A stretch of 39,778 nucleotides of DNA from a virus. Each line of letters begins with the position of its first letter. Positions within the stretch are counted from its first letter, which is position 1. The translations under genes were made by a program, and so were the position numbers. The notes below the pieces were generated by a model. The model saw only the letters and a program-made list of their open reading frames with translations. It did not search any database and was not told the origin of the DNA. The stretch covers positions 1-39,778 of the IMG/VR virus record IMGVR_UViG_3300036760_000153, one strand, 5' to 3'. Of the stretch, positions 2,121 through 23,463 are shown piece by piece.

Positions 2121-2737
2121 GGCAGTGCGATCCCCTCTTTGTTGAGGCGCCAGTGCGCCACTCGATTGCACGCGAGGAAGTCCGGGAAATCCGAACGGTC
2201 CGCGTACTCCGTGATCGTGTAGGTGCCGTCCTTCTTCAGCCGCAGCGCCATCCGCCGCATTCGTGTCGTCTCGAGCATTGGTCGCGCGAGCTGGTCGTAA
2301 CCGGCGAGCTGCAGGGCGACCCAGGCAGCCAGACCGATCGAGGTCTTGAGATCGACGATCCAGCACCAGCCGTCGCGGGCGACACCGAGCCGGTCAAGTG
2401 TCCCGGCGTAGCGGAACTCCTTCGAGACCATGCTGTACTCGATGAGGGTGGGCTTGAAGCCGGTGTCCTTGAGGAACCGCAGATAGCCCTCGAGATAGCC
2501 AGCCGTCTCTTCGTAGGCTTCGTCCTTGCTCGGGTCTTCACCGAGGTCGTGGAGGGCGGTGACTCTGTGTGCGGCGCGGCCTCGTTGCGCGGCTTGGGCA
2601 AGCACGTCCGCGCCGATGCCCGAGAAATCGACGACGCCCGCGAGCGCGAGAACTTCGGTGACGCTGGGAACGCGGCGACCGTCGACGACATACTTCGAGG
2701 TATCTCGTTCGATGTAGAGCCGAGGAGCCGTCTGCAT
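2117..2737 (-). CDS. PD-(D/E)XK nuclease (RecB/Cas4-like)
   Basis: A 206-residue protein. It starts at ATG 2737 (frame TGATG with the upstream stop); a GTG three bases earlier is equally possible. Visible nuclease signature: SVTEVLALAG near residue 25, an RGRAAH motif (51-56) like the RGxxxH of Cas4/RecB-type enzymes, E100 in LIEYSMVSK, D115 in YAGTLDRLG, and D129-L-K131 in IVDLKTS. After the DLK come helices with LAGYDQLAR, the conserved tyrosine/glutamine region of this fold. Such phage enzymes are exonucleases acting in recombination or replication. The neighbouring gp3-like and coiled-coil proteins form a common phage cluster with it. Confidence 0.85.
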   Translation of the reverse strand: MQTAPRLYIERDTSKYVVDGRRVPSVTEVLALAGVVDFSGIGADVLAQAAQRGRAAHRVTALHDLGEDPSKDEAYEETAGYLEGYLRFLKDTGFKPTLIEYSMVSKEFRYAGTLDRLGVARDGWCWIVDLKTSIGLAAWVALQLAGYDQLARPMLETTRMRRMALRLKKDGTYTITEYADRSDFPDFLACNRVAHWRLNKEGIALP

Positions 2738-4155
2738 CACGCTTTCTTCGCGTTCATCGCGAACGTCAGGATTCTCCCAACATCCACCTTCTTCAGATCC
2801 CGCGTCGCCTCGACGCCGAACTTCTTCAGCACAAGCCTCAGTAACTCCGTCGGCTGCATGTCGAGCCGCGTCGCACGTTTCTTCGTCACGTCCCAGAGCT
2901 GCTCCCGCTGCTCGGCGTCGAAGTAGAGGTGCTCGTCTACGCGCGCGGCGGGGGCCGACTGCGGAGGAACAGCGGCTGAAGCCGCCCCTTCTGCGCCAGG
3001 CGCCGGGGAGAGGGAGCTCTCCGTCGGTTCCTCCGCTGCGGGTGCGGCCGGCTCTGGCACAAGGGCATGCACCTCCTCGGCGCCCCCGCTCGCAGATTCA
3101 GCGCCGCCCCCGTCGCCGGAGCTCTCCGGCTCCGTCACGTCTACGACAGGGGCGGCGTCCGCAGCCGGCTCGACCTCGACACCCGCCGCGCGGTCGCGTG
3201 CATCATTGTCGTGGTCGAACTCGGCGCGGAACTCCTCGACTTCCTCGGGCGAGAGCTCCCACGTCCGGGAGATGGTCGCCTCGAGCTTGCGAACCTCGTC
3301 TAGCATCGGCGCGCGAATCGCAAGCTGCCGGTGGACGGTCTCTAAGAGCTGCTGCGGGCCGCCCTTGAATCCAATGCGAGCGATGAGCTGCTTCGACGCA
3401 GGCTTTCCGCTCCGCGGCTGCACCGTCTGATACCCGACGCTGAAGGTCAGCGGAATCCAGGCGAGCGTGCCGCCGGTGATCCGCTTGACCATCTCCAACG
3501 ACTGCTGAATGTTCGCGATGCTGTTCCAACTCGTCGTGCGGAACTCGTAGCAGCCACCGACCGACTGCTGCGCCTGCAGGATGAACCGGAGCCGAGCGGC
3601 TGGTTTGCAGCGCGGCGGATCGCCGTCGAAGTCCGGACAGCCGGGGCCGCAGGGGCGTGCGGCAACGGTGGGGTCCCCAGATTCGCCCCAGGCCCATAAT
3701 TCCATCGGGCCGAGGATCTGAACCGTCTTGCCGTTCTTCGTCTCGCTCCGCAGCACCGTGGCGCGCTGAGCGCTCTGCATGTCCCCGTGGCAGAAGACCG
3801 TTCGGCCGCGGTAGTAGGCGAGCCGGTTCGGGAAGCAGAGCTCGATGTCGTCGAAGGGCAGCCCGATCTCCAGTTCCACGGGGAGACCGTGCTCGAACTC
3901 CTCGAGACCCGTCAGCTCGAGGATCAGCTTCGAGCGGGGGCAACCGCCGCAGGTCCGGGCGCCCTGTTGAATCAGGGTCTGCATGAGATCCACGTCGACC
4001 TCGAGTCGCCCCTGCTCGTCCCGATTGGTCGTGGTGAGCTCGATGTGGTCGTACTTGGTCGGCGGCGCCATCTTGCCCGCCTGCGCCGGGTTCGGCTCCC
4101 CGATCTTCGCGCGGCCGTACACCGGCAGTCCCTCTCGAAGCCCCTTGATCGCCAA
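2737..4155 (-). CDS. gp3-like / 'hydrolase or metal-binding' phage protein
   Basis: First gene of the leftward operon, 472 aa. The start is TTG at 4155, chosen because GGAGG lies 8 bases upstream and the product then begins with AIKGLREGLP, the family's usual N terminus. Residues about 1-280 match a phage family annotated variously as gp3-like, recombination-directionality-factor-like or hydrolase/metal-binding: AYYRG, WCYHGD-like VFCHGD, RPCGPGCPDFDGDPPRCKP, FRTTSWNSIANI, ITGGTLAWIPL. Clustered cysteines (ARTCGGCPR, CGPGC, RCKP) suggest a zinc site. A long A/P/E-rich linker (about 310-410) joins a separate C-terminal helical domain (YFDAEQREQLWDVTKKRATR). A direct role as excision factor for the integrase at 7183 is only inferred. 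Confidence 0.7.
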   Translation of the reverse strand: MAIKGLREGLPVYGRAKIGEPNPAQAGKMAPPTKYDHIELTTTNRDEQGRLEVDVDLMQTLIQQGARTCGGCPRSKLILELTGLEEFEHGLPVELEIGLPFDDIELCFPNRLAYYRGRTVFCHGDMQSAQRATVLRSETKNGKTVQILGPMELWAWGESGDPTVAARPCGPGCPDFDGDPPRCKPAARLRFILQAQQSVGGCYEFRTTSWNSIANIQQSLEMVKRITGGTLAWIPLTFSVGYQTVQPRSGKPASKQLIARIGFKGGPQQLLETVHRQLAIRAPMLDEVRKLEATISRTWELSPEEVEEFRAEFDHDNDARDRAAGVEVEPAADAAPVVDVTEPESSGDGGGAESASGGAEEVHALVPEPAAPAAEEPTESSLSPAPGAEGAASAAVPPQSAPAARVDEHLYFDAEQREQLWDVTKKRATRLDMQPTELLRLVLKKFGVEATRDLKKVDVGRILTFAMNAKKA

Positions 4156-4170
4156 CTTTCGCACCTCCAA

Positions 4171-4196
4171 AGTATCAGCGCACCCTATACCTGTAA
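4171..4196. promoter_or_regulatory. operator copy 1 (before the gp3-like gene)
   Basis: Plus strand reads AGTATCAGC, GC, ACCC, TATACCTGTAA. This is nearly identical to 11262-11288 and similar to the reverse complement of 4245-4266. The half-sites AGTATCAG and TATACCT form an imperfect dyad. It lies just upstream of the GGAGG/TTG start at 4155. On the minus strand GTTACA and TACTTT are 17 bp apart, so it could overlap the leftward promoter. Predicted repressor/Cro site. Confidence 0.6.
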
Positions 4197-4244
4197 CGTG
4201 GTCAGTGCAAGGGCAGCGCCGGCTTCTTGCGCTCGATGCGTTTC

Positions 4245-4266
4245 GGGTATAAGGTCCGCAGATGAT
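4245..4266. promoter_or_regulatory. operator copy 2 (before the Cro-like gene)
   Basis: Plus strand reads GGGTATAAGGTCCGCAGATGAT. Its reverse complement matches the other two copies at about 15 of 22 positions (CTTATACC and the ATC...GC framework), with one degenerate half-site. It lies 15 bases upstream of the ATG at 4282 and contains TATAAG, a plausible -10 for the rightward transcript. The opposite orientation to copy 1 fits a divergent control region. Confidence 0.5.
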
Positions 4267-4281
4267 CTCGGAGGGTATCGC

Positions 4282-4536
4282 ATGGTCGTGAGGGAGCATC
4301 CTGGGAAGACGCTGCGCGAGGCGGTCGGCATGTCGCAGGTCGCGTTCGCGGAGGCGATCGGGGTGACGCAGCCGCGCGTCTCGGATGTCGAGGCGGGGCA
4401 CGGGAACTACGGGCGCGACACGATCCTCTCGATCATGGGGCGGTTCCGGCAGCAGTGCATTCAGCTCGGGATCACGGCGGAGGACATGGCGCGCGGGTTA
4501 GAGGATGAGACCGACGCTCTGGTCGCGCCGAGTTGA
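4282..4536 (+). CDS. Cro/C1-type (XRE) helix-turn-helix regulator
   Basis: An 84-residue protein. The ATG at 4282 has GGAGGG 6 bases upstream. Residues 10-45 are a clear XRE helix-turn-helix: TLREAVGMSQVAFAEAIG, then VTQPRVSDVEAGHG, with the recognition helix at about residues 28-37. The remainder (YGRDTILSIMGRFRQQ) is the supporting helix set, ending in an acidic tail. It is the first gene of the rightward early operon and sits directly beside operator copies 1 and 2. It is therefore a good candidate for a Cro-like switch protein. A second HTH protein lies at 11331-11756. Confidence 0.8.
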   Translation: MVVREHPGKTLREAVGMSQVAFAEAIGVTQPRVSDVEAGHGNYGRDTILSIMGRFRQQCIQLGITAEDMARGLEDETDALVAPS

Positions 4537-4979
4537 GCCGTCGGAAGGTCATCTCGCCGGCCCTCGTCGAGTGGACATGGCTCGCGCTGCGCCAGGCGGC
4601 GGCGAGGCACGGTAAGACGTGGCGCTCCGCACTCTCCGATGCGCGGTACAAGCTGATCGAGGCGGCGCTGCGGCAGGCGTCCCCGCACGAGGTCGCACAC
4701 GCGGTAGACGGCTTCATCGCGAAGTCGAGCGACTGGACGCCGGAGATCCGCGCGAACTGTTTCAATCCGGAGTACATCCTCCGCCCGACGAAACTGGATC
4801 AGCACGTAGAGGAGGCGAATGTGCGCGCGACCGTCGCCGAACGCATGGAGACGCGGCAGAGTTTGACTACGGCGGTGCTGGCTGCCGCCGTCGCGGAGGT
4901 TTCGGTCGAGCAGAACATCGCCGAGGCGAGCGAGCTGCGTGCGCTCGGGTTCTTCGGAGAGGTCGGCGATCGTGCATGA
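4533..4979 (+). CDS. replication-organiser-like protein
   Basis: A 148-residue protein whose TTG start overlaps the previous stop (TTGA). Residues about 25-90 (YKLIEAALRQASPHEVAHAV, DGFIAKSSDWTPE, then FNPEYILRPTKLDQHVEEAN) resemble the C-terminal domain of phage replisome organisers: a lysine/arginine-rich helix, a 'Y/W...G' loop and a final 'ILR....ve.f' segment. The usual N-terminal winged helix is absent, so this is a shortened form or a diverged relative. The following gene encodes an ATPase of the helicase-loader/DnaB fold, which fits replication initiation. Assignment is by pattern and position only. Confidence 0.5.
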   Translation: MSRRKVISPALVEWTWLALRQAAARHGKTWRSALSDARYKLIEAALRQASPHEVAHAVDGFIAKSSDWTPEIRANCFNPEYILRPTKLDQHVEEANVRATVAERMETRQSLTTAVLAAAVAEVSVEQNIAEASELRALGFFGEVGDRA

Positions 4980-5844
4980 CGGGATCGACCTCGCGGCCGT
5001 CCTGCGCCGCGCCCAAGCGGACACCGAGGAGCATCCGCTCGCGAAGCTCGAGCTCGATCCCACCGCAGCGCGCCGCTGGCCCGCCGGGATTGCCGGCATC
5101 GACGACGACGTGCACATGGCCGGCTTCTACGGCTTCACCGCAGTCTGCGGCTCCGCGAAGCTCGGGAAGTCGATCGTCGGCTACCAGAGCGCGCTCGTCG
5201 CCGCGATGAACGGCTGGCGCGTGATCTACGTCGACGCCGAGCTCGACGACTGGCAGGCGAATCAGCGCATCCGTAACTCGGTGCAGATGGCCCCGAAGAA
5301 TTGGCTCTACGAGCACCCAAACTTCGTCTGGCGCCAACTCTTCAAGCGCACATCGCTCGAGGTGCTCGTGAACGACGTGGCTGGGTGGGTCGAGGACTAC
5401 GACGAGAAGGTCCTGGTCGTACTCGACTCGATTCACCGGATCGCGCAGAAGATGGTGGACCGCAGGCGGCGGATCGACTTCTACGACGCGCTGCACGATC
5501 TCGTGAACTGGTGCCTCACGGCGCGGCGCATGGCGCATGGCGGCCTCGGCTTCATGGTGATGTCGGAGCAGAACAAGCACGGCGGGACCAAGGGCGAGTC
5601 GATCGAATTCGCCTGCGACGTGCTGCTGAAGCTGAAGGGCAAGGCGAGCGAGCGGACGACGGAATTGAACGTCGAACTCTCGCGCGAGGGCGGTGGCGGG
5701 TCGCTGGGGCAATACGTGCGGGACTGGTCGAGGTGCCGCTTCCGGCGACCGGAGCGGGTGGAGATGGAGGAGCAGCCGGAGTTGCCGCCCTTGCCGACTG
5801 AGCCGGACGACTGGACGCGGGACGAGCCGCCTTTCCCGATGTAA
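4972..5844 (+). CDS. RecA/DnaB-fold ATPase, probable replication or recombination ATPase
   Basis: A 290-residue protein. GTG at 4972 is preferred because GGAGAGG lies 9 bases upstream and it overlaps the previous gene's end. The Walker A motif GSAKLGKS is at residues 60-67, an acidic second motif (IYVDAELDDW) at 85-94, Walker B VLVVLD at 147-152, and a glutamine sensor region in FMVMSEQNKHGG near 200. This order fits the RecA/RadA/DnaB ATPase core, without the DnaB N-terminal domain. The C-terminal tail is proline- and acid-rich. Position after an organiser-like gene suggests a helicase or helicase-like ATPase acting in phage DNA replication. A KaiC/RadA-like recombination ATPase is the alternative. 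Confidence 0.75.
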   Translation: MHDGIDLAAVLRRAQADTEEHPLAKLELDPTAARRWPAGIAGIDDDVHMAGFYGFTAVCGSAKLGKSIVGYQSALVAAMNGWRVIYVDAELDDWQANQRIRNSVQMAPKNWLYEHPNFVWRQLFKRTSLEVLVNDVAGWVEDYDEKVLVVLDSIHRIAQKMVDRRRRIDFYDALHDLVNWCLTARRMAHGGLGFMVMSEQNKHGGTKGESIEFACDVLLKLKGKASERTTELNVELSREGGGGSLGQYVRDWSRCRFRRPERVEMEEQPELPPLPTEPDDWTRDEPPFPM

Positions 5845-5846
5845 CA

Positions 5847-5867
5847 GCGGCAACCGCCGCATGGAGG
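5847..5867 (+). promoter_or_regulatory. SD-proximal GC hairpin with ribosome site
   Basis: GCGGC (5847-5851), loop AACC, GCCGC (5856-5860), then GGAGG at 5863-5867 before the ATG at 5873. One of six leaders of this design in the window. The stem would place the SD just 3' of a stable hairpin. Confidence 0.55.
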
Positions 5868-5872
5868 CCACA

Positions 5873-6214
5873 ATGGCGAAGTCAGACGCAGAGAAGCTCA
5901 CCGAACGGGTCGCCGCCCACTACCAGCAGATGCTTGCCGAGTCGCTGCCGCGCATCAGCGAGGCGATGGACACCGACGAGGCTCGCCAGGCGAGCTTCAC
6001 GGTCACGGTCACGTTCCAGCGGGGCAAGAACGGGGTTTCGGCGAAACTCATGCCGCGCGAGCGTATCCCGATGCCCGGGATCGAGCTCAAGCTGACCGCA
6101 GATGACGACGGGCAGCTCGGGCTCTTCGCGGGACACGGCGCGCCGAAGATCGTGCCTGCGGGCAAGAGCATGAACGACAACGAGGACGAGCAGTCGGCAC
6201 CCCCGGCTCACTGA
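5873..6214 (+). CDS. conserved small phage protein, 113 aa
   Basis: The ATG at 5873 is chosen because GGAGG lies 5 bases upstream; an earlier in-frame ATG at 5861 overlaps the SD itself. The N-terminal half (KSDAEKLTERVAAHYQQ) is helical. Residues about 40-85 hold alternating hydrophobic strands (ASFTVTVTFQRGKNGVSAKL), followed by PRERIPMPGIELKL and DDGQLGLF. This strand pair ending in a D-G-Q-L-x-L-F motif recurs in small early phage proteins near replication genes, with no known activity. The tail is acidic. No catalytic residues stand out. Confidence 0.65.
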   Translation: MAKSDAEKLTERVAAHYQQMLAESLPRISEAMDTDEARQASFTVTVTFQRGKNGVSAKLMPRERIPMPGIELKLTADDDGQLGLFAGHGAPKIVPAGKSMNDNEDEQSAPPAH

Positions 6215-6216
6215 AC

Positions 6217-6236
6217 GCCGCGGAGCGGCAAGGAGG
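6217..6236 (+). promoter_or_regulatory. SD-proximal GC hairpin with ribosome site
   Basis: GCCGC (6217-6221), loop GGA, GCGGC (6225-6229), immediately followed by AAGGAGG (6230-6236) and ATG at 6242. Same architecture as 5847-5867 and 22977-23000. The arm order is reversed relative to 5847, so the stem rather than the primary sequence is kept. Confidence 0.55.
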
Positions 6237-6241
6237 CAAAC

Positions 6242-6457
6242 ATGGCGAAGAGAACGAGCATCGTGTTCCTGGACGGCATCGTGACGCTGAAGCGCACGAA
6301 GGGCGGCTACCGGATCGAGATTGTCGACGCCGGTGGGCTGAAACAGGCGGAGTCGCTGCGGAACGCCACGGAGGCGCTGATCCGGGACCTCTGCCCGCCG
6401 CTGCTGATCGTGAGTCAGCCGGTCAAGACGGAACGGATCGTCGGCCACGTCGCATGA
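6242..6457 (+). CDS. hypothetical protein, 71 aa
   Basis: The ATG at 6242 follows AAGGAGG at 5-base spacing. The product MAKRTSIVFLDGIVTLKRTK reads as short strands in a mixed alpha/beta fold, with a helix near ESLRNATEALIRDLCPP. No motif or family is recognised. Its stop overlaps the start of the RusA-like gene as ATGA, so the two are probably translationally coupled. Confidence 0.6.
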   Translation: MAKRTSIVFLDGIVTLKRTKGGYRIEIVDAGGLKQAESLRNATEALIRDLCPPLLIVSQPVKTERIVGHVA

Positions 6458-7005
6458 GCGAGTCGGCGGTCAGGGAGGTTCGGTTCGAGGTGCTCGGCAC
6501 GCCCGCGCCGAAAGGCAGCTCACGCGCCATCCTGATCGCCGGCTTAGCCCGCAACGTCCCCAGCGGCTCCGACGTGAACCGCAAGCGCCTGCGCTCGTGG
6601 GACGTCAACGTGCGAGAGGCCGCGCTCGCCGCCGTCGGCGGACCGCCGCCGTTCATCGGGGTCGCGCTCGACGTCTTTCTGCGCTTCGCCCTGCGGCGGC
6701 CGGCGGGGCACTACGGCAAACGTGGGCTGCGGCCATCCGCGGCCCTGTATCCGACGACCAAGCCCGACTGCGACAAAATTGCTAGGGCGACTCTCGATTC
6801 ACTCACCGGCATCGTGTTCGACGATGACAGCCGGATCGTGCGGCTCCTGGTCTACAAGCTCTACGCTTCTCCGGTATGGCCGGAAGGCGCCACTATCTCG
6901 GTAACAGCGCTGGAGCAGCCTGACGATCGACGAGATATGCAAGCTGCGCCTGCGCCCGATCGTCTCGGTGCAGCGGAACCTCATCCGTCCGCGCCTGGAA
7001 GATGA
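6454..7005 (+). CDS. rusA: RusA-type Holliday junction resolvase
   Basis: A 183-residue protein. The family signature is clear: FEVLGTPAPKGSSRAI at the N terminus (the RusA GxPxPKxR-like strand), KPDCDK at 103-108, D115 in ATLDSLTG, and FDDDSR at 122-127. These give the acidic cluster that binds metal in RusA. Family role: cuts four-way junctions in replicating or recombining phage DNA before packaging. RusA proteins are usually 120-150 aa. The extra 30-residue polar tail here is encoded in the stretch that also codes, on the other strand, for the end of the 6893-7183 gene. It overlaps the upstream gene by ATGA and ends the rightward early operon. Confidence 0.92.
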   Translation: MSESAVREVRFEVLGTPAPKGSSRAILIAGLARNVPSGSDVNRKRLRSWDVNVREAALAAVGGPPPFIGVALDVFLRFALRRPAGHYGKRGLRPSAALYPTTKPDCDKIARATLDSLTGIVFDDDSRIVRLLVYKLYASPVWPEGATISVTALEQPDDRRDMQAAPAPDRLGAAEPHPSAPGR

Positions 7006-7183
7006 TCGTCACCGCGTAGCGGTCGCTCCGATCTGACGCGACCTTCACGCTCGGAATCACGAAAGCGGAGAGCTCTTCCGCCATGAAGATGTCGCGCAGC
7101 AGGTCGAGCATGCGGACCTGGCCCTGCACCCTGCACCGAAAGAACGTCTCGGCGTCGGTGTAGTCGCTTTTTTTGATCTGCAT
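6893..7183 (-). CDS. hypothetical protein, 96 aa, overlaps rusA tail-to-tail
   Basis: The ATG at 7183 overlaps the integrase stop (TAATG), with GAGGAG 7 bases before it. The product has a helical first half (VQGQVRMLDLLRDIFMAEE) and a strand-rich middle (AFVIPSVKVASDRSDRYAVTIIF). Its last 37 codons lie opposite the end of rusA, giving an unusual convergent overlap of 113 bp. No family is recognised. Coupling to the recombinase suggests joint expression. Confidence 0.6.
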   Translation of the reverse strand: MQIKKSDYTDAETFFRCRVQGQVRMLDLLRDIFMAEELSAFVIPSVKVASDRSDRYAVTIIFQARTDEVPLHRDDRAQAQLAYLVDRQAAPALLPR

Positions 7184-7782
7184 TACCAGCTCCTCTTCGT
7201 CGTGGCAGCGATCACTTCGGTCGCGCCGATCGAGGTGAGGTAGCGCTGTGTGGTATCGAGCCGCCGATGTCCTAGCGCCAGCATGATTTCGACCATCCCC
7301 ACGCCCTCGTCGTAGAGTTCCCGCGCGAACGTGTGCCGCAGCGCGTGCGCGTGCACCCGGCGCGAGAGGCCGGATTTCTTCCCGAGCCGCGGCACGAGCG
7401 CGCGGATGTACGTGGCCGAGAGAGGTTGGCCCGCGCGAGTTGGGAAGAGCAGCCCGGGAGAGACCCCGCGGAACTCAAGCCACGCCGCGAGCAGTCCCGC
7501 CGCCTTCGGGTCGAGTCCGACTTCGCGCGGGGGGGCGCCTCGCCGGAATCCCTTCGGCCGCTCGACGCGCAGCACGACGCCGCCAGGTACGTTTCGCACG
7601 TCGGAGAGGGAGAGGCCAAGCGCCTCCGAGCAGCGGAGTCCGGCGCGGTAGTACGTCGCCAGCAGCGCGCGGTTTCGGGCGCCGATCCATCCCTCGCCGG
7701 CCGCCTCGAGCAGCCGCGCCGCATCGGCCGCGTCGACCGCGTGGGCTGGAAACTTCCGGCCTCGATTCTGACCGCCGGTCAC
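7183..7782 (-). CDS. int: tyrosine recombinase, catalytic domain only
   Basis: A 199-residue protein with the full catalytic set in order: R50 (AGLRCSEALGL), K77 (ERPKG), H146-A-L-R149 (HALRHTFA), H172 (LALGHRRLDTTQ) and Y181 (QRYLTS). The catalytic domain begins almost at the first residue. The arm-type and core-binding (SAM-like) N-terminal domains of phage integrases (usually 320-400 aa total) are missing. The start is GTG at 7782, overlapping the previous stop as GTGA. The gene upstream (7779-8096) does not look like a core-binding domain split off by frameshift. It could integrate the phage, resolve multimers or invert a segment. No attachment core was found nearby. Confidence 0.9.
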   Translation of the reverse strand: MTGGQNRGRKFPAHAVDAADAARLLEAAGEGWIGARNRALLATYYRAGLRCSEALGLSLSDVRNVPGGVVLRVERPKGFRRGAPPREVGLDPKAAGLLAAWLEFRGVSPGLLFPTRAGQPLSATYIRALVPRLGKKSGLSRRVHAHALRHTFARELYDEGVGMVEIMLALGHRRLDTTQRYLTSIGATEVIAATTKRSW

Positions 7783-8096
7783 GTTCGCTCGAGATCGGCT
7801 TCGGCGTCGCGCTCGGCCTCGGTTGCTTCATGCGTCGCCTGGTCGCCATGTATGCGCTCAAAAGCTGCGTCTTCGGCCCGATTGCGCGCGAGCTCCGCGG
7901 CGTGCTCTTCGGCCGATGCTGCGATCGCGCCGCGTACCAGCGCGCGGCAGACCCTGATTCCGCCGATTCTGAGCGTGTCTCGCATGTACCGAGCCACGCG
8001 GTCGATTGACTCCGCGCCTCGATCCGGCCCGAGCCAGCCGAGAATCATCGCGCGCGCGCTCGGAGTTGCGTACTGCGCTTCGGTGTAGGTTCTCAT
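7779..8096 (-). CDS. hypothetical helical protein, 105 aa
   Basis: The ATG at 8096 has GGAGG 1-2 bases upstream within GGGCGGAGGC and follows the 8097-8192 structured leader. The N-terminal half has two tryptophan/glycine turns (ILGWLGPDRG) and basic helices. The C-terminal third is a charged helix rich in A, E, R and D (AASAEEHAAELARNRAED). It overlaps the recombinase start by GTGA, so it may be a partner or directionality factor, but no DNA-binding motif is evident. Confidence 0.6.
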   Translation of the reverse strand: MRTYTEAQYATPSARAMILGWLGPDRGAESIDRVARYMRDTLRIGGIRVCRALVRGAIAASAEEHAAELARNRAEDAAFERIHGDQATHEATEAERDAEADLERT

Positions 8097-8192
8097 GCCT
8101 CCGCCCTTTCAGCGCCATCGGGCGCCTCTACCTCGAAAGCCCCGATCGCTGGCATCCCAGGAGATCGGGGCGAGGCTCGCGCGCGCTGCGGA
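8097..8192 (-). promoter_or_regulatory. structured intergenic leader: long plus short hairpin
   Basis: On the minus strand a long hairpin comes first: arms GCCCCGATC at 8139-8147 and GATCGGGGC at 8163-8171, with an inner CTGG/CCAG pair. About 13 nt later a short one follows: GCGCC 8112-8116 and GGCGC 8121-8125, loop of 4. Then GAAAGGG and the start at 8096. The arrangement is the same as in the leaders at 8941-9077 and 10902-11000. The long stem is followed by only three U residues, so a rho-independent terminator is doubtful. Confidence 0.6.
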
Positions 8193-8348
8193 TCACTTCG
8201 CCCGCTTCTCCGCCTCCTGCACCGCGTCGTCGATCACGAGCCGCCTACGGCTGCGCCAGGCTGCGCGAGCGGACCGATGCCGCAGTCGCGCGTCTATCCT
8301 GTCGAGTAGCGCGACGATCGCCGCGCGTAGCCTGCTGCGCGCGCTCAC
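8193..8348 (-). CDS. basic small protein, 51 aa
   Basis: GTG at 8348 overlaps the upstream TGA as GTGA. The product (SARSRLRAAIVALLDRIDAR and onward) is strongly basic and helical, rich in R and A, with a final acidic helix (DDAVQEAEKRAK). A nucleic-acid-binding role is possible on charge alone. No family is recognised. Evidence is the overlap, the codon-length fit between neighbours and the colinear operon. Confidence 0.5.
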   Translation of the reverse strand: MSARSRLRAAIVALLDRIDARLRHRSARAAWRSRRRLVIDDAVQEAEKRAK

Positions 8349-8683
8349 AGCCACCTCACCGGGATCACCGGATAGCTCGGCAGAATCGGCGCGTTCCGCA
8401 GCACTTCCCGAATAACGTCCATCCGCCGCGCACACGGCCAGAACCCCGAGAGCTCAACACCCTGCACCGGCCAGAAGTCCGCCGGGAGCTCGTCGTGATC
8501 CTCGAGAACCGCCACCTCTCCCGCCTCCTTGTCGCCCGAAGCCCGCACCGCGAAAGTCAGCCGACCCGTGGCGCCGACCGTCGGCCCCCAGATTCTCAGC
8601 GCCTCTCCGTCCAGAGCTATTGCGAGCGATTCCAGGTCACGCCGTACGTGTCCACTCCAAGGCAGCTTTACCGCCCGCATCAT
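8345..8683 (-). CDS. hypothetical protein, 112 aa
   Basis: ATG at 8683 is chosen because it overlaps the upstream stop as ATGA and has GGGAGG 8-10 bases before it. Two further in-frame starts lie within six bases on either side. The product is strand-rich (AIALDGEALRIWGPTVGATG, then LTFAVRASGDKEAGEVAVLE) with a cysteine-containing GFWPCARRMDVI segment and a proline-rich end. It looks like a small folded domain. No known family or active site is visible. Confidence 0.6.
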   Translation of the reverse strand: MMRAVKLPWSGHVRRDLESLAIALDGEALRIWGPTVGATGRLTFAVRASGDKEAGEVAVLEDHDELPADFWPVQGVELSGFWPCARRMDVIREVLRNAPILPSYPVIPVRWL

Positions 8684-8940
8684 CGCCACACCTCCCGACG
8701 CTCGAACGTCTCGACGGCCTCGAGCACGTCGCGCGCCTCGCCCTCGTCGGGCATCTCAAGCAGCTCCCGACCATCGGGCAGCTCGACATTTCGCAGCACC
8801 ACGCACGCGCGCAGGCTCACGCGGTACTCCGTCCCATCCACGCGGTAACGCCGAAACGCTCTCACGCCGGAAATCTGCTCCCGGTCGCGCGCGATCGGCC
8901 CAACTTCCCAGCCGATCCCCTCAAACTTCCGACGCTCCAT
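8680..8940 (-). CDS. hypothetical protein, 86 aa
   Basis: The ATG at 8940 has AAGGGG 5 bases upstream and is preceded by the structured leader 8941-9077. The product MERRKFEGIGWEVGPIARDR is a series of short strands (GTEYRVSLRACVVLRNVELPDGRE) ending in an acidic helix (EARDVLEAVETFERREV). No recognised family. Its size, leader and overlap with the next gene suggest a small regulatory or accessory phage protein. Confidence 0.6.
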   Translation of the reverse strand: MERRKFEGIGWEVGPIARDREQISGVRAFRRYRVDGTEYRVSLRACVVLRNVELPDGRELLEMPDEGEARDVLEAVETFERREVWR

Positions 8941-9077
8941 CGCATCCCCTTTCCGGGCATCTCGCCCGATTGTGCTGCGCCGCAGTGCGCAGAGAGAACC
9001 GGCCAGCCTGAAGTGAGTGCGGCACGCGCCGCGCTGGCCGGTTGACTCCGCCCGCTACCTCGCGAGCGATGCCGCTT
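8941..9077 (-). promoter_or_regulatory. structured leader, homologous to 10902-11000
   Basis: Minus-strand order: GGTAGCG, long stem with arms AACCGGCCAGC (8997-9007) and GCTGGCCGGTT (9033-9043), inner GCGGC/GCCGC pair, then AATCGGGCG, short stem CGGGC (8954-8958)/GCCCG (8964-8968), GGAAAGG and the ATG at 8940. Shared blocks with 10902-11000 are GGTAGCG, GCCGCACTC, AATCGG, ATGC and CCGGAAAGG. The stems differ in sequence but still pair. Either a conserved regulatory RNA or an attenuator. Confidence 0.65.
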
Positions 9078-9458
9078 TCAATCCCAGTGCGGCTCTCCCA
9101 ACCGCTCCGGCTTCCGACCCTCGCACCGCGCAAGGAATTCCTCGTAGTACGCGTTAGAGCTCGGGATGCTCTCACCGGCATCCGGGACGGAATCCAGCGC
9201 GAGCAGCTTCGCGAGCTCGGCTCGATCGGTCGGACTCATGCCTCGGCCCGGCTCGCCCGTGTCGTATGCTTCCCAGGTGTCTCGCGCCGTCGCCGTCTGC
9301 GGCGTCACCTGGCGATGGCCCCACGTCCTCCGCGCCGGCGGCGACGTGATCTTCAGCCAGCCGTAAGCGGTCCCGATGCCGCCCGTAACGCTCCATCGCT
9401 TCCCCGAGCGCTTCTCGAGCGCGGCCTTCATGGCCTTCATCGTCTCGTTGCGATTCAT
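9078..9458 (-). CDS. hypothetical protein, 126 aa, 'GGxGTAxGWLxI' domain
   Basis: The ATG at 9458 overlaps the upstream stop (ATGA). The first 20 residues are a basic helix (MNRNETMKAMKAALEKRSGK). Then RWSVTGGIGTAYGWLKITSP resembles a small domain seen in phage and plasmid proteins, where a glycine-rich turn leads to a W-x-x-I strand, followed by a short segment with a conserved GMSPTDRAELAKLLAL helix. The end is polar. Such proteins are often neighbours of DUF3560 and DUF7007 genes, as here. Function unknown. Confidence 0.65.
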   Translation of the reverse strand: MNRNETMKAMKAALEKRSGKRWSVTGGIGTAYGWLKITSPPARRTWGHRQVTPQTATARDTWEAYDTGEPGRGMSPTDRAELAKLLALDSVPDAGESIPSSNAYYEEFLARCEGRKPERLGEPHWD

Positions 9459-9889
9459 CGCTCCACCTCCCGCAGTGCGCAGCCGTCCGGCGCATCCGCA
9501 TGCGTCCGCGGCAGCTCGCCCACGAGCGAGCCCGGCCCGATCGGCTCGTCACTCCCGGCGCGCAGAACCGCCGCGTAGACCGGATTCCGCGCTCCGAATA
9601 CTCTGACGCCGGCCTCGATCCACTCGCGGACCTTGCCGCGAGAGATGCCAAACGCCTCGGCGAGGTCGGGATAGATCCACAGCGGGAACGCCATGTAGGC
9701 GTCTTCCTCGTACCACCCCGGCCCGCTCATGCTGGCGGCCGCAGCGCGCGCGATCTCCGGCATGCCGAGTTCGAGCTCCGCCGGCAGGTAAACGCCGCCG
9801 TGACTCGATGTTTCGACGTGCCAGGCTCCGCGCGTGAGATCCCGCGCGCTTTGAACGTGCCCCCAGGGGCTTGTGATCGGCTTGCTCAT
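9455..9889 (-). CDS. DUF7007-like protein, 144 aa
   Basis: ATG at 9889, overlapping the DUF3560-like stop (ATGA). Residues 5-75 fit the DUF7007 pattern as I know it: PWGHVQSARDLTRGAWHVET, then SSHGGVYLPAELE and GWYEEDAYMAFPLWIYPDL. After that a short HTH-like stretch (AEAFGISRGKVREWIEAG) and a polar tail follow. DUF7007 is common on plasmids and phages beside DUF3560, with no known activity. The HTH-like part hints at DNA contact but is weak. Confidence 0.7.
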   Translation of the reverse strand: MSKPITSPWGHVQSARDLTRGAWHVETSSHGGVYLPAELELGMPEIARAAAASMSGPGWYEEDAYMAFPLWIYPDLAEAFGISRGKVREWIEAGVRVFGARNPVYAAVLRAGSDEPIGPGSLVGELPRTHADAPDGCALREVER

Positions 9890-10671
9890 ACTCCTCCCTC
9901 CTCGGCGACGCTCGCAAGCGCCGCAACTTCGGCCGGCAACCTCTCGGAGCGCCCGCTCCAAGATCCGCCGCCCCAACAAAACCCCGCGCCCTTCAATGCG
10001 TCGATCACGGCGCGCTCCGGCTTCTCGGCGAACGTCACGACCACGTACTCGCTCGTCGGAGTCGCGCGCGCGACCTGCACCCCGCCGGCCGCCTCGGCCG
10101 CCTTCGCGCGAGTCTCGCGCGCCCGGATAGCCTCGATCCGCTTCCGGTCCGCCCCGATCCGGCCGCCCAGGTTCGCCAACTGGAACTTCTCGAACGGCGC
10201 CCGAACGAAGCTCAACCCGATCGCGGCCACGCTCACGCGCAGCTTCTTGAGGTCGAGCCCGAGCTCCGCCAGGCCGGCCGCGTCGCCCTTCCGGTACAGC
10301 CGATTGACCAGCACCATACGCGCCCGCGTCGCCTCGAGCTCTCGGATTCGAGCCTCGAGCGATGCGATGGCGTCGTGGTCGTCGCTGTAGATGCTCCGCT
10401 CGAGCGCGTGTTCCAGGTTGCCGGCAACGCTCTCGTGGTGCTCGGCCATGTCGGCAGACTCGAAGCCGCGACGCATGCCGCTGTGGATGCGCTCCTGATC
10501 TCGCCGCGCGTGCTTCTCGCTGTGATGGCCGACTAGGATCGGCTGGCCGAGCGGGATTCCGTCCGCGATCCGCTTCGCCGCACCGAAAGCGGCCGCCGCC
10601 TTCCGTTCGCGACCCTCCGCCCACTCCCGGCGCTTCTCGATCCGCGCCTCGATTCGCTCTCGTCTCGTCAT
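9886..10671 (-). CDS. DUF3560-like protein, 261 aa
   Basis: ATG at 10671 overlaps the upstream stop. Residues 1-70 (RRERIEARIEKRREWAEGRE, then AAKRIADGIPLGQPILVGHH and a SEKHARRDQERI basic helix) are the DUF3560 hallmark. The central region is a long coiled coil (SLEARIRELEATRARM). The C terminus (SEYVVVTFAEKPERAVIDAL, then KGAGFCWGGGSW) matches the small terminal domain often attached to DUF3560. The family is typical of plasmids and temperate phages. Its function is not established. It is the largest protein of the accessory operon. Confidence 0.8.
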   Translation of the reverse strand: MTRRERIEARIEKRREWAEGRERKAAAAFGAAKRIADGIPLGQPILVGHHSEKHARRDQERIHSGMRRGFESADMAEHHESVAGNLEHALERSIYSDDHDAIASLEARIRELEATRARMVLVNRLYRKGDAAGLAELGLDLKKLRVSVAAIGLSFVRAPFEKFQLANLGGRIGADRKRIEAIRARETRAKAAEAAGGVQVARATPTSEYVVVTFAEKPERAVIDALKGAGFCWGGGSWSGRSERLPAEVAALASVAEEGGV

Positions 10672-10901
10672 CGCGACACCCCTGCAATCGCAGCAACAAC
10701 CAGCGTTCCGATTCGAGTAGTCGTTTCCCACTCGATGACGGTCACGTCAGGCTTGCCGCTGGTTTCGGCTCGCGCAGTGGCGCGAGCTAACACGGCGTGC
10801 TGGGCTGCGGCGGCGGTAGGGTAGAACTCGCCGACTGCGATGCCGGTCTCTTCGACGTACCACCCTTCGCTTTGTTCGCTGATTTCGACGCGCACGCTCA
10901 T
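10668..10901 (-). CDS. hypothetical protein, 77 aa
   Basis: The ATG at 10901 follows GGGAG and is preceded by the structured leader 10902-11000. The product MSVRVEISEQSEGWYVEETG has a beta-hairpin-like front, a helix in PTAAAAQHAVLARATAR, and a hydrophobic end (RIGTLVVAAIAG). It could be a small single-domain protein. No family is recognised. It overlaps the DUF3560-like gene by 4 bases. Confidence 0.6.
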   Translation of the reverse strand: MSVRVEISEQSEGWYVEETGIAVGEFYPTAAAAQHAVLARATARAETSGKPDVTVIEWETTTRIGTLVVAAIAGVSR

Positions 10902-11000
10902 CGCTCCCAACCTTTCCGGCGCATCCGCGCCGATTCTCCGCTCGTAAGTGAGCAGACCGGAACCGCACTCCCGCATGCGAGTGCGGCTCAAGTCTGCGCG
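10902..11000 (-). promoter_or_regulatory. structured leader, homologous to 8941-9077
   Basis: Minus-strand order: GGTAGCG, outer stem GCAGAC (10952-10957)/GTCTGC (10992-10997), inner stem CCGCACTC (10963-10970)/GAGTGCGG (10979-10986), AATCGG, short stem CGGCGC (10917-10922)/GCGCCG (10927-10932), GGAAAGG, GGGAG and the ATG at 10901. The short stem keeps pairing although its bases differ from the 8954-8968 stem. A further 7-bp hairpin (GCGCGCT/AGCGCGC, 10996-11014) covers the end of the upstream gene. Confidence 0.65.
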
Positions 11001-11219
11001 CTACCCAAGCGCGCTCATCAAGTCGAGCTGATCCCGACGCGCCATCGGCTCGCCCGTCTCCAACTCATGCGCCACCGCGCGCAGCTCCGCCGCTAGCGCC
11101 GCCCTCACCCCCTTCAGGTTCGCCGCGTTCGTCGGAATCCCCAACCGCTCGCAGATAGACTCGGGACTCGCTCCGACCTTCCAAAGCCTCAGGATTCTTG
11201 CCCCTGCCGGGTTCATCAT
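11001..11219 (-). CDS. small HTH-like protein, 72 aa, first gene of accessory operon
   Basis: Starts at ATG 11219 (or the adjacent ATG 11216) behind GGAGAGGGG. Residues 8-35 (ARILRLWKVGASPESICERLG, then IPTNAANLKG) read like a helix-turn-helix of the 'response to position' type found in small phage regulators. The rest is a single long helix (RAALAAELRAVAHELE). It is expressed from the promoter region that contains operator copy 3. It may regulate the accessory operon or excision. Confidence 0.6.
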   Translation of the reverse strand: MMNPAGARILRLWKVGASPESICERLGIPTNAANLKGVRAALAAELRAVAHELETGEPMARRDQLDLMSALG

Positions 11220-11261
11220 GCCCCTCTCCCTTCCCGGTCCACCTCGGACCGCAACCGTATC

Positions 11262-11288
11262 AGTATCAGCAAACCTTATACCTGTCAA
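11262..11288. promoter_or_regulatory. operator copy 3 with overlapping minus-strand promoter
   Basis: Plus strand reads AGTATCAGC, AA, ACCT, TATACCTGTCAA, matching copy 1 (4171-4196) at about 22 of 26 positions. On the minus strand it starts with a perfect TTGACA (11288-11283); 17 bp further is TACTGA preceded by TG. The -10 is uncertain. The site lies between the end of the HTH repressor gene and the first accessory gene, as expected for a repressed promoter. Confidence 0.65.
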
Positions 11289-11330: not shown

Positions 11331-11756
11331 TTATCCCCCTAACACCTCGAACTCACTCTCCTCCGCACTCTCCGCTTCAACCCTCGCCACCGCCTCAGCG
11401 ACCGCCCGCTCCGCCAGCGCCGAGCACCGCTTCCGCGTCGCGGCCTCTCGAGCTCGCCGCGCCATGATCCGCCGCTGCAACGCACTGTGCTGCGACGTCG
11501 TCGCACCAGGTAGCGCCGGACGCGCATCCAATCCAGGTACCAGATCCGTCGGGCGGCAACCCACCGCACTCGCCAGTAGCACCAGATGCGTCACGGTCGC
11601 TTCCGAGTATCGCCCCGCCCGCAAGTTCGACACAACCCGACCGCCCAAACCCGACAACGCGCACACATCCGACACCCGAAGCCCCAACTCGTCCATCATC
11701 CGCGCCAAAGGCGCCCGCGTGTCGATCCGATTCACCGCCGGCTCTGTCCCCTTCAT
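11331..11756 (-). CDS. XRE-family HTH repressor candidate, 141 aa
   Basis: Starts at ATG 11756 (ATGA overlap with the upstream gene). Residues about 15-70 form an XRE helix-turn-helix: PLARMMDELGLRVSDVCALS, then GLGGRVVSNLRAGRYSEATV, with a following helix TVTHLVLLASAVGCRPTDLV, which is the classic 'L...L.v....L' end of Cro/C1 domains. The C-terminal part is basic and helical (ALQRRIMARRAREAATRKR), with an acidic end. There is no LexA-type autocleavage motif (AG...S...K), so SOS-style induction is not visible. It is the most likely lysogeny-type repressor, and its gene ends 42 bp before operator copy 3. Confidence 0.75.
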   Translation of the reverse strand: MKGTEPAVNRIDTRAPLARMMDELGLRVSDVCALSGLGGRVVSNLRAGRYSEATVTHLVLLASAVGCRPTDLVPGLDARPALPGATTSQHSALQRRIMARRAREAATRKRCSALAERAVAEAVARVEAESAEESEFEVLGG

Positions 11757-12019
11757 CCCTCCACCTCGGCCGCCGCACGCACCGCCGCACGCTCAAGCAC
11801 CCGCTCCCGGTGACCCACCCGCAACACCTCGAGCGCAGCCGCGATCACCAGACCATTCGGCCCCAACGTCGGCGCCATCAACCGATACCGCGCCAACGCG
11901 TCGTGCATCATCGCCCAGACCACCGTCGCCACCGGCACACCCCATCCATCCGCGATCACATTCAAGTCCTCGAACTCTCCCTTCCTACACGATACCACCA
12001 CAGGTTCCGAGCGACGCAT
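11753..12019 (-). CDS. ribbon-helix-helix-like small regulator, 88 aa
   Basis: ATG at 12019 is chosen because the resulting N terminus EPVVVSCRKGEFEDLNVIAD supplies the strand expected before two helices (DLNVIADGWG, then VPVATVVWAMMHDALARYR), an RHH-like layout. A TTG at about 11961 with a stronger SD (GGAAGGGAG) would remove the strand. The rest is a helical tail. It overlaps the HTH repressor start (ATGA). It could be an auxiliary repressor or Arc-like protein. The fold call is from pattern alone. Confidence 0.5.
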   Translation of the reverse strand: MRRSEPVVVSCRKGEFEDLNVIADGWGVPVATVVWAMMHDALARYRLMAPTLGPNGLVIAAALEVLRVGHRERVLERAAVRAAAEVEG

Positions 12020-12194
12020 CGCATCCGGACCCCGACGTGCTCCAGATCCACGCTTCGCCCCTCGCGCGTTCGGTGACGACACTCCACTTCTCCTCAGGCT
12101 CTACTCCGAGCCTCTCCGAAACGAGTAGCGCATCGAGCGCAAGGAGCGAGGATCCGGCCGGGTTCGTAGCGTGAGCGATCGTCTCTTGCGCCAC
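11985..12194 (-). CDS. doubtful small ORF, 69 aa
   Basis: An open minus-strand frame from GTG 12194 to TAG 11985 gives VAQETIAHATNPAGSSLLAL and onward. The composition is plausible for a folded protein (a leucine-rich helix, then EEKWSVVTERARGEAWIWST). No strong SD is seen, and the end overlaps the 12019 start region by 35 bp in another frame. It sits just after a strong hairpin (12194-12225). It may be a real leader gene of the repressor operon or chance. Confidence 0.25.
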   Translation of the reverse strand: MAQETIAHATNPAGSSLLALDALLVSERLGVEPEEKWSVVTERARGEAWIWSTSGSGCDASLGTCGGIV

Positions 12195-15402: not shown

Positions 15403-15845
15403 TGGGGTTCAAGTCCGGGCTGCACACCGCAGGAGGCCAGGGGACGCTTGCGCATCGCCGGAAGGAGCTGCAGGAGGCCGAGCTACAGGCGACGCTCGAG
15501 GCCGCGCAGATCAACGAGGCGCAGCGGCTCGCGCAGGAATCCACGCCCGCGTGTATGCGTGAGCTCAAGCGCATGGCGACCTCGCACGCGAAGCAGATTG
15601 TGGTGTCGGAAGCCGTGCGTCTGGCGGCGATCCGTCTCTTGTTGGAAACCGCGTGGGGCAAGCCGAGCGTGCGTGAGTCGAAGGACGGCGGCACGCGGCG
15701 CGCGGGCGCAGGGGGCCGGCGCATCGTCGTGAACATCAACACGCACGGCGCCGGGGTCGGGAAGCAGGTTCGCGTGACGGCGATGGGCTCTCTTGTGGCG
15801 GCAAGTGAAGCTGCGCAGGATGCGGAGTACGAGGAGGGCTTGTGA
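15402..15845 (+). CDS. terminase small subunit-like protein
   Basis: A 147-residue protein with ATG at 15402 overlapping the previous TAA (TAATG). It is predominantly helical, with a charged coiled coil at about residues 18-50 (RKELQEAELQATLEAAQINE) and a repeat-like helical pair (ELKRMATSHAKQIVVSEAVR, then LAAIRLLLETAWGKPS). The AxxLLexawGKP ending is common in phage proteins directly before terminase large subunits. The C-terminal part is glycine-rich, then acidic. The stop overlaps the TerL GTG start, as expected for a TerS/TerL pair. The assignment is mainly positional. Confidence 0.6.
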   Translation: MGFKSGLHTAGGQGTLAHRRKELQEAELQATLEAAQINEAQRLAQESTPACMRELKRMATSHAKQIVVSEAVRLAAIRLLLETAWGKPSVRESKDGGTRRAGAGGRRIVVNINTHGAGVGKQVRVTAMGSLVAASEAAQDAEYEEGL

Positions 15846-18094
15846 CGGGAGCGCATTCCGACGCGGCCCTGGATCTCCCGTACCTGTGGACGCCGCGGGA
15901 GTACCAGTTGCCGGCGTGGCACGCGCTGCACGAGGGCTATCTGCGGACGTACCTTGTCTGGCACCGGCGCGCGGGCAAGGGCGCTTGCATGGTGAACTTC
16001 TGCGTGACGCAGGCCGCGCAGCGCGTGGGGCTGTACTGGCACGTCCTGCCGACCTACAAGCAGGGGCGGAAGATCATCTGGGACGGCATGACGAAGGAGG
16101 GTCGGAAATTCACCGACTACTTCCCGCCCGAGCTCGTGCTCCGCAGGACTGAGGCGGAGATGTCGGTTTGGATGACGAACGGGTCGCTGTATCAGGTGGT
16201 CGGAGCCGATGACGTAGACAAGCTCGTCGGTGCGAATCCGATCGGAGTCGTGCTCGACGAGTACGCGCTGATGGACTCGAGCGTGTGGAACTTCTTCCGC
16301 CCGATCCTGGCTGAAAATGGGGGCTGGGCGGTGTTCACGACGACGCCGCGGGGCCGGAATCACGCCTACGAGCTGTGGCAGCGTGCGAAGAAAAACAAGA
16401 ACTGGTTCACGCAGCTCCTGACGGTCGATGACACCGGCGCGGTGACGCCGGAGGCGATCCAGGAGGACCGCGACTCCGGCATGCCCGAGGAACTGGTCCA
16501 ACAAGAATACTGGTGCCTGCCGCCGGGGGTGCCGATCCTGACCGATCGAGGACAGGTGCCTATCGAGCAGGTGCGGACCGGGATGCGAGTGCTGACCCAC
16601 TCGGGGCGGTGGCGTTCGGTGCTCGAAACAATGGAGCACGAAACGACTGGCGGGCTCGTCGAGATCCAGACTTACGGCAACCGCCGCACGCTGCTCGTCA
16701 CGCCGGAGCATCCGGTGCGCACGCTGCAGCCGGACTCGCAGGTCTACGCCTGGCGCCCGGCGGGCGAGATCAAACGCGGCGACTGGCTGACGATGCCGCG
16801 TCCGAGAAAGGGCCGCCCGATCGTTCCTCCGCATCTGGCGAAGCTGGCAGCTTGGTACGTGGCGGAAGGCTCCTGCTCCAAAACAGCGGTGCAGTTCTCA
16901 CTCGGGTCGACGGAAGGGGACTACGCCGACGAGATCGAAGCCTGTGCCCTCCTGTACGGGGCGAGTAGCGCGCGCGCGACCAGCGACCTGAATTGCTTGA
17001 CGGTCCAGGTCCGTTCCGCCGCGCTTTCGGATTCTCTCGCGAACGCCTGCGGCTCTGGTGCCGCTAGCAAGCATCTTCCGTGGGAGTGGGTCGCTGGGCA
17101 CGAGGCTCTGTTCTTGGACCGGCTCATTCGAGGTGATGGCTGCGAGATCAACGGCGGATGGATGTACACGACGATCAGCGAGTCCCTGGCCTACGACGTG
17201 CAAATGCTCGCGTCGGCGTGTGGGTACGGCTCTGGGATCAGCGAGCGGCGTGGCGGCCATGCCGTGATCCAAGGCCGGAATATCGTGAGTAGAGACAGTT
17301 TCTGCGTGCGGATCTCGACAACTCCATCGTCGAAGATTTTGCCGGCGAAGAATGCGATTGGCGTGCGAGTCCGTTCGGTCGCGCGGCTGCCCTACGCTGG
17401 GCGTGTCCACAACCTGCGCGTGCAGTACGAAGAGAGCTTTGTTGCGGCGGGTCGCGTCGTCCACAATTGCTCGTGGGACGCGCCGCTCGTCGGCTCGTAC
17501 TACGGCGATCAGGTCAACGCGGCGACGAAGGCGGGACGGATCACGAAGGTGCCGTGGGAGCCGACGGCGCTTGTGGAGACCGCCTGGGATCTCGGCGTGG
17601 GCGACGCGACCGCGATCCTATTCTGCCAGCAGATCGGCAAAGAGGTCCGGATCATCGACTACTACGCGAGCTTTGGGAAAGGGCTCGACCACTACGCGAA
17701 GGTGCTGCAGGAGAAGCCATACGCTTACAAGCACGCGCTCCTGCCGCATGACGCGGAGCAGCGGTCGATGGAGTCGGGGAAGACGCGGGTGGCGATCCTG
17801 CAGTCATTGGGCATGCGCTGCCGCGTGCTGCCGCGCATGCCGATCGAGGACGGGATCGCGGCGGTGCGAATGCTCTGGCCGCGGCTCTGGATCGACGAGG
17901 AGAAGTGCGAGGTGTTCATCCGCGCCGCCCGCGAGTATCGCAAGGAGTTCGACGTGAAGTCGGAGACGTATGGGGACCATCCGAGGCACGACTGGACATC
18001 AAATCCGATGGACGCGCTGCGTTATTTGGCACTCGGCTTGCGACCGGCGCAGCCCAAGCGCGAGAGTCTCGCGCCGCGGCTCGCTATCGTGTAG
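15842..18094 (+). CDS. terL: terminase large subunit interrupted by an intein
   Basis: The 750-residue precursor starts at GTG 15842 (GTGA overlap). Extein 1, residues 1-224: ATPase with Walker A-like HRRAGKGA (41-48), Walker B VVLDE (136-140) and coupling motif FTTTPRGRNH. Intein residues 225-542. Extein 2, residues 543-750: nuclease domain with ETAWDLGVGDATAIL, LLPHDAEQR and HDWTSNPMDALRYL, giving the RNase H-like acidic residues. After splicing the product would be 432 aa, a normal TerL length. It pumps and cuts phage DNA during packaging at the portal. The next genes are a small helical protein and the portal. Confidence 0.93.
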   Translation: MTGAHSDAALDLPYLWTPREYQLPAWHALHEGYLRTYLVWHRRAGKGACMVNFCVTQAAQRVGLYWHVLPTYKQGRKIIWDGMTKEGRKFTDYFPPELVLRRTEAEMSVWMTNGSLYQVVGADDVDKLVGANPIGVVLDEYALMDSSVWNFFRPILAENGGWAVFTTTPRGRNHAYELWQRAKKNKNWFTQLLTVDDTGAVTPEAIQEDRDSGMPEELVQQEYWCLPPGVPILTDRGQVPIEQVRTGMRVLTHSGRWRSVLETMEHETTGGLVEIQTYGNRRTLLVTPEHPVRTLQPDSQVYAWRPAGEIKRGDWLTMPRPRKGRPIVPPHLAKLAAWYVAEGSCSKTAVQFSLGSTEGDYADEIEACALLYGASSARATSDLNCLTVQVRSAALSDSLANACGSGAASKHLPWEWVAGHEALFLDRLIRGDGCEINGGWMYTTISESLAYDVQMLASACGYGSGISERRGGHAVIQGRNIVSRDSFCVRISTTPSSKILPAKNAIGVRVRSVARLPYAGRVHNLRVQYEESFVAAGRVVHNCSWDAPLVGSYYGDQVNAATKAGRITKVPWEPTALVETAWDLGVGDATAILFCQQIGKEVRIIDYYASFGKGLDHYAKVLQEKPYAYKHALLPHDAEQRSMESGKTRVAILQSLGMRCRVLPRMPIEDGIAAVRMLWPRLWIDEEKCEVFIRAAREYRKEFDVKSETYGDHPRHDWTSNPMDALRYLALGLRPAQPKRESLAPRLAIV
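16514..17467 (+). mobile_element. intein with LAGLIDADG-type endonuclease in terL
   Basis: 318 residues, from Cys at 16514 (CLPPGVPILTDRGQVPIEQV, block A) to HN at 17462-17467, followed by Cys+1 (17468). Block B is TLLVTPEHPVRTLQ, with its His. The end block is GRVHNLRVQYEESFVAAGRV then VHN. In between, LAKLAAWYVAEGS and FLDRLIRGDG correspond to the two LAGLIDADG helices, with acidic residues E and D. All splicing residues are present, so it is predicted active. Insertion falls just after the ATPase domain, in the conserved QEYW-C-SWDAPLVG segment. Confidence 0.92.
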
Positions 18095-23000: not shown

Positions 23001-23459
23001 ATGCACAACCAGACGCAGCGCTCCGACGGCTCCTCTCGATTCGTCGAGGGGGAAACCGCGTTGGAGTCTCTTCGGCTCTCCAACGGTGGGGCCGAGTGGT
23101 ACGATGCTCAGATCACATTCGGCGCAGAGGGCGCGGCGGTAGCCGATCGCATCGACATCACGATTCAGCTTCTGGATCGCGCTGGGCGGTCGATCAAGAG
23201 CCAAAGTGCTCTCATCGTGTGGCCTGCGGTCGCAGACGGCACGAAGGTCGCGTCGGCGGTCACGACAGTCACGGTTCTGACCGGTGTGCTTCTGTTTCGC
23301 CCGTTATCGCCGACGGCAAGCGCGCACATCATGTACCCGGACGTGAACGGCGTCGTCTCGGTCGGGTTCACGCAGACGGGCGGAGCGGCGACGCGAACGT
23401 GCTGCGTCATGCTGCCGGATGGCCGTGTGATTGAGGGCGCGACAATGACGTGGGCATAG
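23001..23459 (+). CDS. tandem structural paralogue 1 of 3 (probable decoration/Ig-like)
   Basis: A 152-residue beta-rich protein. Shared core with the next two genes: FVEGETALESLRLSNGGAEW, then AAVADRIDITIQLLDRAGRS, a VWPAVADGTK strand, YPDVNGVVSVGF, and an end CCVMLPDGRVIEGATMTW. The repeated strand pattern and D-x-T-I-Q-L-x-D-R motif suggest an immunoglobulin-like sandwich. Position just after the capsid points to a head decoration protein. Two adjacent cysteines near the end are unusual. Confidence 0.7.
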   Translation: MHNQTQRSDGSSRFVEGETALESLRLSNGGAEWYDAQITFGAEGAAVADRIDITIQLLDRAGRSIKSQSALIVWPAVADGTKVASAVTTVTVLTGVLLFRPLSPTASAHIMYPDVNGVVSVGFTQTGGAATRTCCVMLPDGRVIEGATMTWA

Positions 23460-23463
23460 ACGG

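Follow-up and report, generated by a model that had tools for sequence, protein, structure and literature searches.

An operator-like element upstream of three early operons in a probably temperate environmental phage

Results

Gene layout

The window, which is the whole stretch of DNA analysed here, is an IMG/VR virus contig of 39,778 bases with 65.6% GC and is known only from environmental DNA. A leftward recombination operon begins with a Gp3-like gene (PF18897, Pfam E 1.3e-26) at 2737–4155 on the minus strand. This gene has a TTG start at 4155 and is followed by exonuclease genes with phrog matches. The rightward replication genes start at 4282 and encode an XRE protein, then an AAA ATPase and RusA. 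A second leftward run extends from 12082 to 6893 and contains, in order, a companion gene, the gene for a 141-aa HTH protein, an intergenic element (site 3, below) and the genes for a small HTH protein, DUF3560, DUF7007 and an integrase. The structural genes run rightward and lie beyond this run.

The integrase gene (7183–7782, minus strand) is near the end of the operon that follows site 3. Its product is a 199-aa tyrosine recombinase with the catalytic domain only (PF00589, E 3.4e-27). The core-binding domain that is usual in tyrosine recombinases is absent, and in length the protein is comparable to its weak matches, the tyrosine-type DNA invertases. The portal protein belongs to family phrog_1216, and among the phage records closest to it are many from Pseudomonas and Escherichia phages. 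Because of this portal family and the tyrosine recombinase gene, the phage is probably temperate.

Several other features of the window are recorded here. The large terminase (15842–18094, plus strand) contains an insertion of about 317 residues at approximately 226–542 that starts with CLPPGVPILTDRG and ends with VHN before a Cys. This insertion is absent from the relatives L102 and L103 and is very probably an intein. Seven early genes (starts at 5874, 6242, 8096, 8940, about 10904, 11219 and 12082) have a short, GC-rich, perfect hairpin immediately 5' of the ribosome-binding site, with its end 12–15 nt from the start codon. Start-proximal hairpins are also present in L102, L205 and L196. 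Any hairpin of at least 5 bp within 45 nt occurs at 21% of random positions, without this fixed distance. The hairpins recall the start-associated sequences of cluster K mycobacteriophages (PMC3203893). Tandem repeats based on 9 bp are found in low-complexity stretches at 168–490 and 30324–30440, and the structural-gene region contains three similar tandem segments at 23064–24380 with a spacing of about 463 bases.

HTH proteins

The earlier note on this DNA named two phage HTH regulators, and both are supported by Pfam matches above cut-off. The XRE protein (4282–4536, plus strand, 84 aa) matches HTH_3 (PF01381), is encoded by the first gene of the replication operon and is a Cro-like candidate. 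The repressor candidate (11331–11756, minus strand, 141 aa) matches HTH_26 (PF13443, Pfam E 1.7e-6) and, weakly, phrog_2328, annotated as a transcriptional repressor. The HTH of both products is of the XRE/Cro-C1 fold. In the AlphaFold2 model of the 11331 product (mean pLDDT 78), the HTH occupies approximately residues 16–73, and one long helix (87–139), rather than a peptidase domain, is predicted for the C-terminus. The structural neighbours of this HTH in Foldseek are C.AhdI, DdrO, 434 Cro and P22 C2 (E 0.007 and weaker). The product has no Pfam S24 or NCBIfam match to a LexA/S24 autocleavage domain, in agreement with the note. No sequence match to it is found among the phage records searched.

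The companion gene (11753–12082, minus strand, 109 aa) overlaps the start of the repressor gene, and four phages keep the two genes together. The companion protein has no family match in the libraries searched. A ribbon-helix-helix protein was suspected from its sequence pattern; no library supports this assignment. The gene directly under site 3 (11001–11219, minus strand) encodes a small HTH_23-like protein (E 0.0015, below the Pfam cut-off).

Three copies of one element

The core GGTATARGGTNNGCWGAT occurs with zero mismatches at 4174–4191 (minus strand), 4246–4263 (plus strand) and 11265–11282 (minus strand). Site 1 (GGTATAGGGTGCGCTGATACT, 4171–4191, minus strand) is upstream of the leftward recombination operon and site 2 (GGTATAAGGTCCGCAGATGAT, 4246–4266, plus strand) is upstream of the XRE gene. 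Site 3 (GGTATAAGGTTTGCTGATACT, 11262–11282, minus strand) is upstream of the leftward operon that carries the integrase gene near its end, and is directly preceded by a TTGACA hexamer (11283–11288). These are the three sites that the earlier note described. Sites 1 and 3 are identical at 22 of 26 bases, as it reported, and site 2, when reversed, matches site 1 at 19/26 and site 3 at 18/26. The left half of site 2 is kept and the right half is degenerate.

No further copies of GGTATARGGTNNGCWGAT with two or fewer mismatches are present elsewhere in the 39.8 kb window, and shuffled sequence gives 0.35 matches at that threshold. The shorter GGTATANGG alone is found at the same three places only (expected 0.08). 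A matrix built from the three 21-mers scores its own sites at 31–34 bits and the rest of the genome at 10.6 bits or less. This full-genome scan, which the note had proposed, yields nothing beyond the three sites, and the element is absent from the other gene starts in the window. When each site is left out in turn, it ranks third genome-wide with 20.6–26.1 bits, and the next position scores about 12. The score of site 2 under a matrix of sites 1 and 3 is reached by 0 of 200 Markov genomes. In IMG/VR, an exact scan for the core returns 17 single matches, none of them paired, and in its exact form the site seems to be particular to this phage.

All three sites are intergenic and point to the next downstream gene. 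Site 2 was previously described as reversed; relative to the downstream gene, all three are oriented alike. The statement that each site precedes the first gene of a transcription unit stands as regards intergenic position and direction, and fails for site 3 in one respect, which is that this site precedes the gene at 11219 and not that at 11331. Site 3 comes after the stop codon of the 11331 gene, which is upstream of the site and shares its strand. As laid out in the sequence, the 11331 gene is not controlled by site 3, and site 3 can control the run from 11219 leftward to the integrase. Uniqueness and placement thus bear out the view of one operator-like element at three putative early promoters.

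Symmetry and promoter geometry

The dyad is weak. The symmetric positions are paired at 5/10 in site 1, 3/10 in site 2 and 6/10 in site 3, which has the best dyad (GTATAAG-gtttg-CTGATAC). The term dyad operator, used in the earlier note, is therefore a moderate fit for sites 1 and 3 and a poor one for site 2. Sites 1 and 2 share the same geometry, with 36 nt from GGTATA to the start codon (TTG at 4155 and ATG at 4282, respectively) and a GGAGG between. A consensus promoter scan at the sites finds no promoter. Candidates for the -10 box are TATARG or a box downstream of TTGACA; the relative L102 favours TTGACC and TAGAGT flanking the palindrome. A downstream -10 box in sites 1 and 2 would put the ribosome-binding site outside the transcript. 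The conserved stretch GGT-nn-GCWGAT extends well past any promoter hexamer.

A diverged site in the nearest relative

The 14.9 kb contig L102 was found by terminase searches, and its terminase is 63% identical in the best segment. It encodes an orthologue of the 11331 repressor candidate (52% identical) and shares with the window the gene order companion, repressor, DUF7007. In the interval between the repressor gene and the next gene, L102 contains TTGACC-CTAGGCATAGCCTAG-AC-TAGAGT, which is a perfect palindrome inside a 17-bp spacer with good -35 and -10 boxes on either side. This site was picked by position and palindromy. The second L102 site (3055–3075) was first noticed as the best match to the window motif in L102, with 4 mismatches. 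Its palindrome core was seen afterwards, and a search for the core, TAGG-N5-CCTA, returned the same two places only (two copies on the contig, expected 0.017). The second core copy, at 3059–3071, is upstream of a rightward gene. Of the seven CTAG words on L102, five fall within the two palindrome regions. The rightward gene that follows 3055–3075 (plus strand; ORF to 3589) has a secreted-looking product and is possibly a lysogenic-conversion gene under repressor control.

The two sets of sites recover one another. Under a symmetrised window matrix, the L102 sites rank 1 and 4 of 14,880 positions, with P 0.0008 by permutation of the matrix columns with symmetry kept and P 0.0026 for the minimum-rank part alone, which concerns the L102 site chosen by position. 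Under an L102 matrix, window sites 1 and 3 rank 1–4 of 39,758 with trims of 17–21 bp (P ≤0.0007) and 6–19 with shorter trims (P up to 0.004); window site 2 ranks 24–141. Likeness to the window motif played a part in the choice of the second L102 site, which makes all the P values given here somewhat too favourable. The half-site register is the same in both phages, with five bases between the halves.

Conservation in relatives, which the earlier note made a test of its proposal, is thus partial, since in this nearest relative the place of the site is kept and its sequence only partly so. The L102 contig stops short of the region with sites 1 and 2; the orthology therefore covers the position of site 3 only. 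The site appears to have diverged together with the repressor. This fits operators drifting alongside their repressor; a bare promoter or chance would not readily account for it.

Other relatives

The companion and repressor pair is kept in the more distant L205 and L196. Dyads after the repressor gene in these two contigs were considered as operators; none is significant or is found a second time on its contig. Companion homologues are present in L126 and L127, where no repressor is detected. Searches with the Gp3-like protein and the XRE protein, and searches of phage records, find no close relative. The portal-based relatives (34–39%) have no detectable early genes, and a portal search of genome contigs returns only four matches, all distant.

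Discussion

The three sites are best explained, with a probability of roughly 0.7, as operators of the immunity system of a temperate phage in which the 11331 protein is most likely the lysogeny repressor. The sites would overlap the core promoters of the three early operons, those for recombination, replication and integrase, respectively. In a lysogen, the 141-aa HTH protein (11331–11756) most likely occupies all three sites and blocks RNA polymerase. After infection, the 4282 XRE protein probably binds to these sites too, in the manner of a Cro-like autorepressor; both HTH proteins may bind them, as CI and Cro do in lambda. As the repressor candidate lacks an autocleavage domain, induction would not use RecA-stimulated self-cleavage and would instead depend on an antirepressor, on degradation or on loss of expression. 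The description of a complete repressor/Cro circuit was overstated, and the circuit is better called predicted. Binding, the identity of the binder, repression and the lysogenic role are all read from the sequence, and the choice of 11331 over 4282 as the binder is suggested by the L102 neighbourhood and by analogy.

The 4282 XRE protein could instead be the sole binder and autoregulate the early operons, with the 11331 protein acting elsewhere. This reading, which overlaps with the favoured one, is possible if on the unlikely side. Autoregulation is common among small XRE proteins, and the 4282 gene immediately follows site 2. The diverged operator of L102 argues the other way, as it comes directly after the 11331 orthologue, and site and protein differ from the window together. 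The argument is weak because the L102 contig lacks the 4282 region.

The sites might also be plain core promoters of the early genes, recognised by the RNA polymerase of the host or by an alternative sigma factor, with no phage repressor involved. Their common direction toward the downstream gene would suit this, GGTATAAG could be a -10 box, and TTGACA precedes site 3. It is nevertheless a distinctly unlikely account, given that conservation continues past any hexamer, that all other gene starts lack the element and that the spacer between the -35 and -10 boxes in L102 holds a different palindrome, which is repeated at a second place. Binding of a CII-like activator that switches on all three operons would be consistent with the constant orientation relative to transcription, and is very improbable. 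Known activator sites are mostly further upstream, whereas sites 1 and 2 end at the ribosome-binding site and the L102 element is inside the -35/-10 spacer. Chance likeness of AT-rich intergenic stretches, to which the small number of sites and the conspicuousness of AT-rich words in a 66% GC genome might point, is hardly credible given the Markov genomes and the recovery of sites in both directions between the window and L102.

The immunity circuit favoured here is not undescribed in kind, as had been proposed. Mycobacteriophage BPs has a comparable circuit and is the closest described system. Its repressor, gp33, is a short HTH protein (136 aa in the viral form) with a Cro-like partner, and the repressor and integrase genes are transcribed leftwards together (PMC4557955). 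The window likewise has a short HTH repressor candidate, a Cro-like candidate and a leftward run with the repressor-candidate and integrase genes. BPs has four regulated promoters and few palindromic operators, with half sites of unequal quality, and its PR operator lies between -35 and -10 (PMC4557955). Site 2 similarly combines a conserved half site with a variable one, and the promoters here are putative. The repressor and cro genes of BPs are adjacent and divergent, whereas the two HTH genes here are 7 kb apart. In BPs, attP is inside the repressor gene.

The repressor of L5 and the cluster A phages, which does not resemble lambda CI, acts at asymmetric sites that are oriented with transcription (PMC9283540), and L5 is a precedent for the orientation-fixed sites of the window. 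The 13-bp sites of L5 number more than twenty, and stoperators are among them; the window has three sites, all at putative promoters. The second DNA-binding domain of the L5 type is not apparent in the 11331 model, which predicts one long helix instead. As in lambda CI/Cro, there are two HTH regulators, with predicted operators at early promoters that diverge. Three features that define the lambda switch are absent. Lambda has adjacent, divergent repressor and cro genes, whereas 4282 (plus strand) and 11331 (minus strand) are 7 kb apart; it has three operators per early promoter rather than one; and its repressor has a LexA/S24 self-cleavage domain, which the repressor candidate lacks.

As BPs is the closest system and these lambda features are absent, this kind of viral on/off circuit counts as already known, and the uncharacterised companion gene is its most interesting part. 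A more speculative reading, offered tentatively and rather doubtful, is that the companion and repressor pair of the four environmental phages defines a new immunity group of uncultivated temperate podoviruses. Single, direction-fixed operators would drift with the repressor and give rise to new immunity types, and the companion would set induction instead of SOS self-cleavage. The predicted immunity circuit of the window can be tested, and comes from a phage group without a close match in the phage records searched. The window and L102 also provide a natural repressor/operator pair, with proteins that are 52% identical and sites that are related but different, which would suit studies of how immunity specificity diverges.
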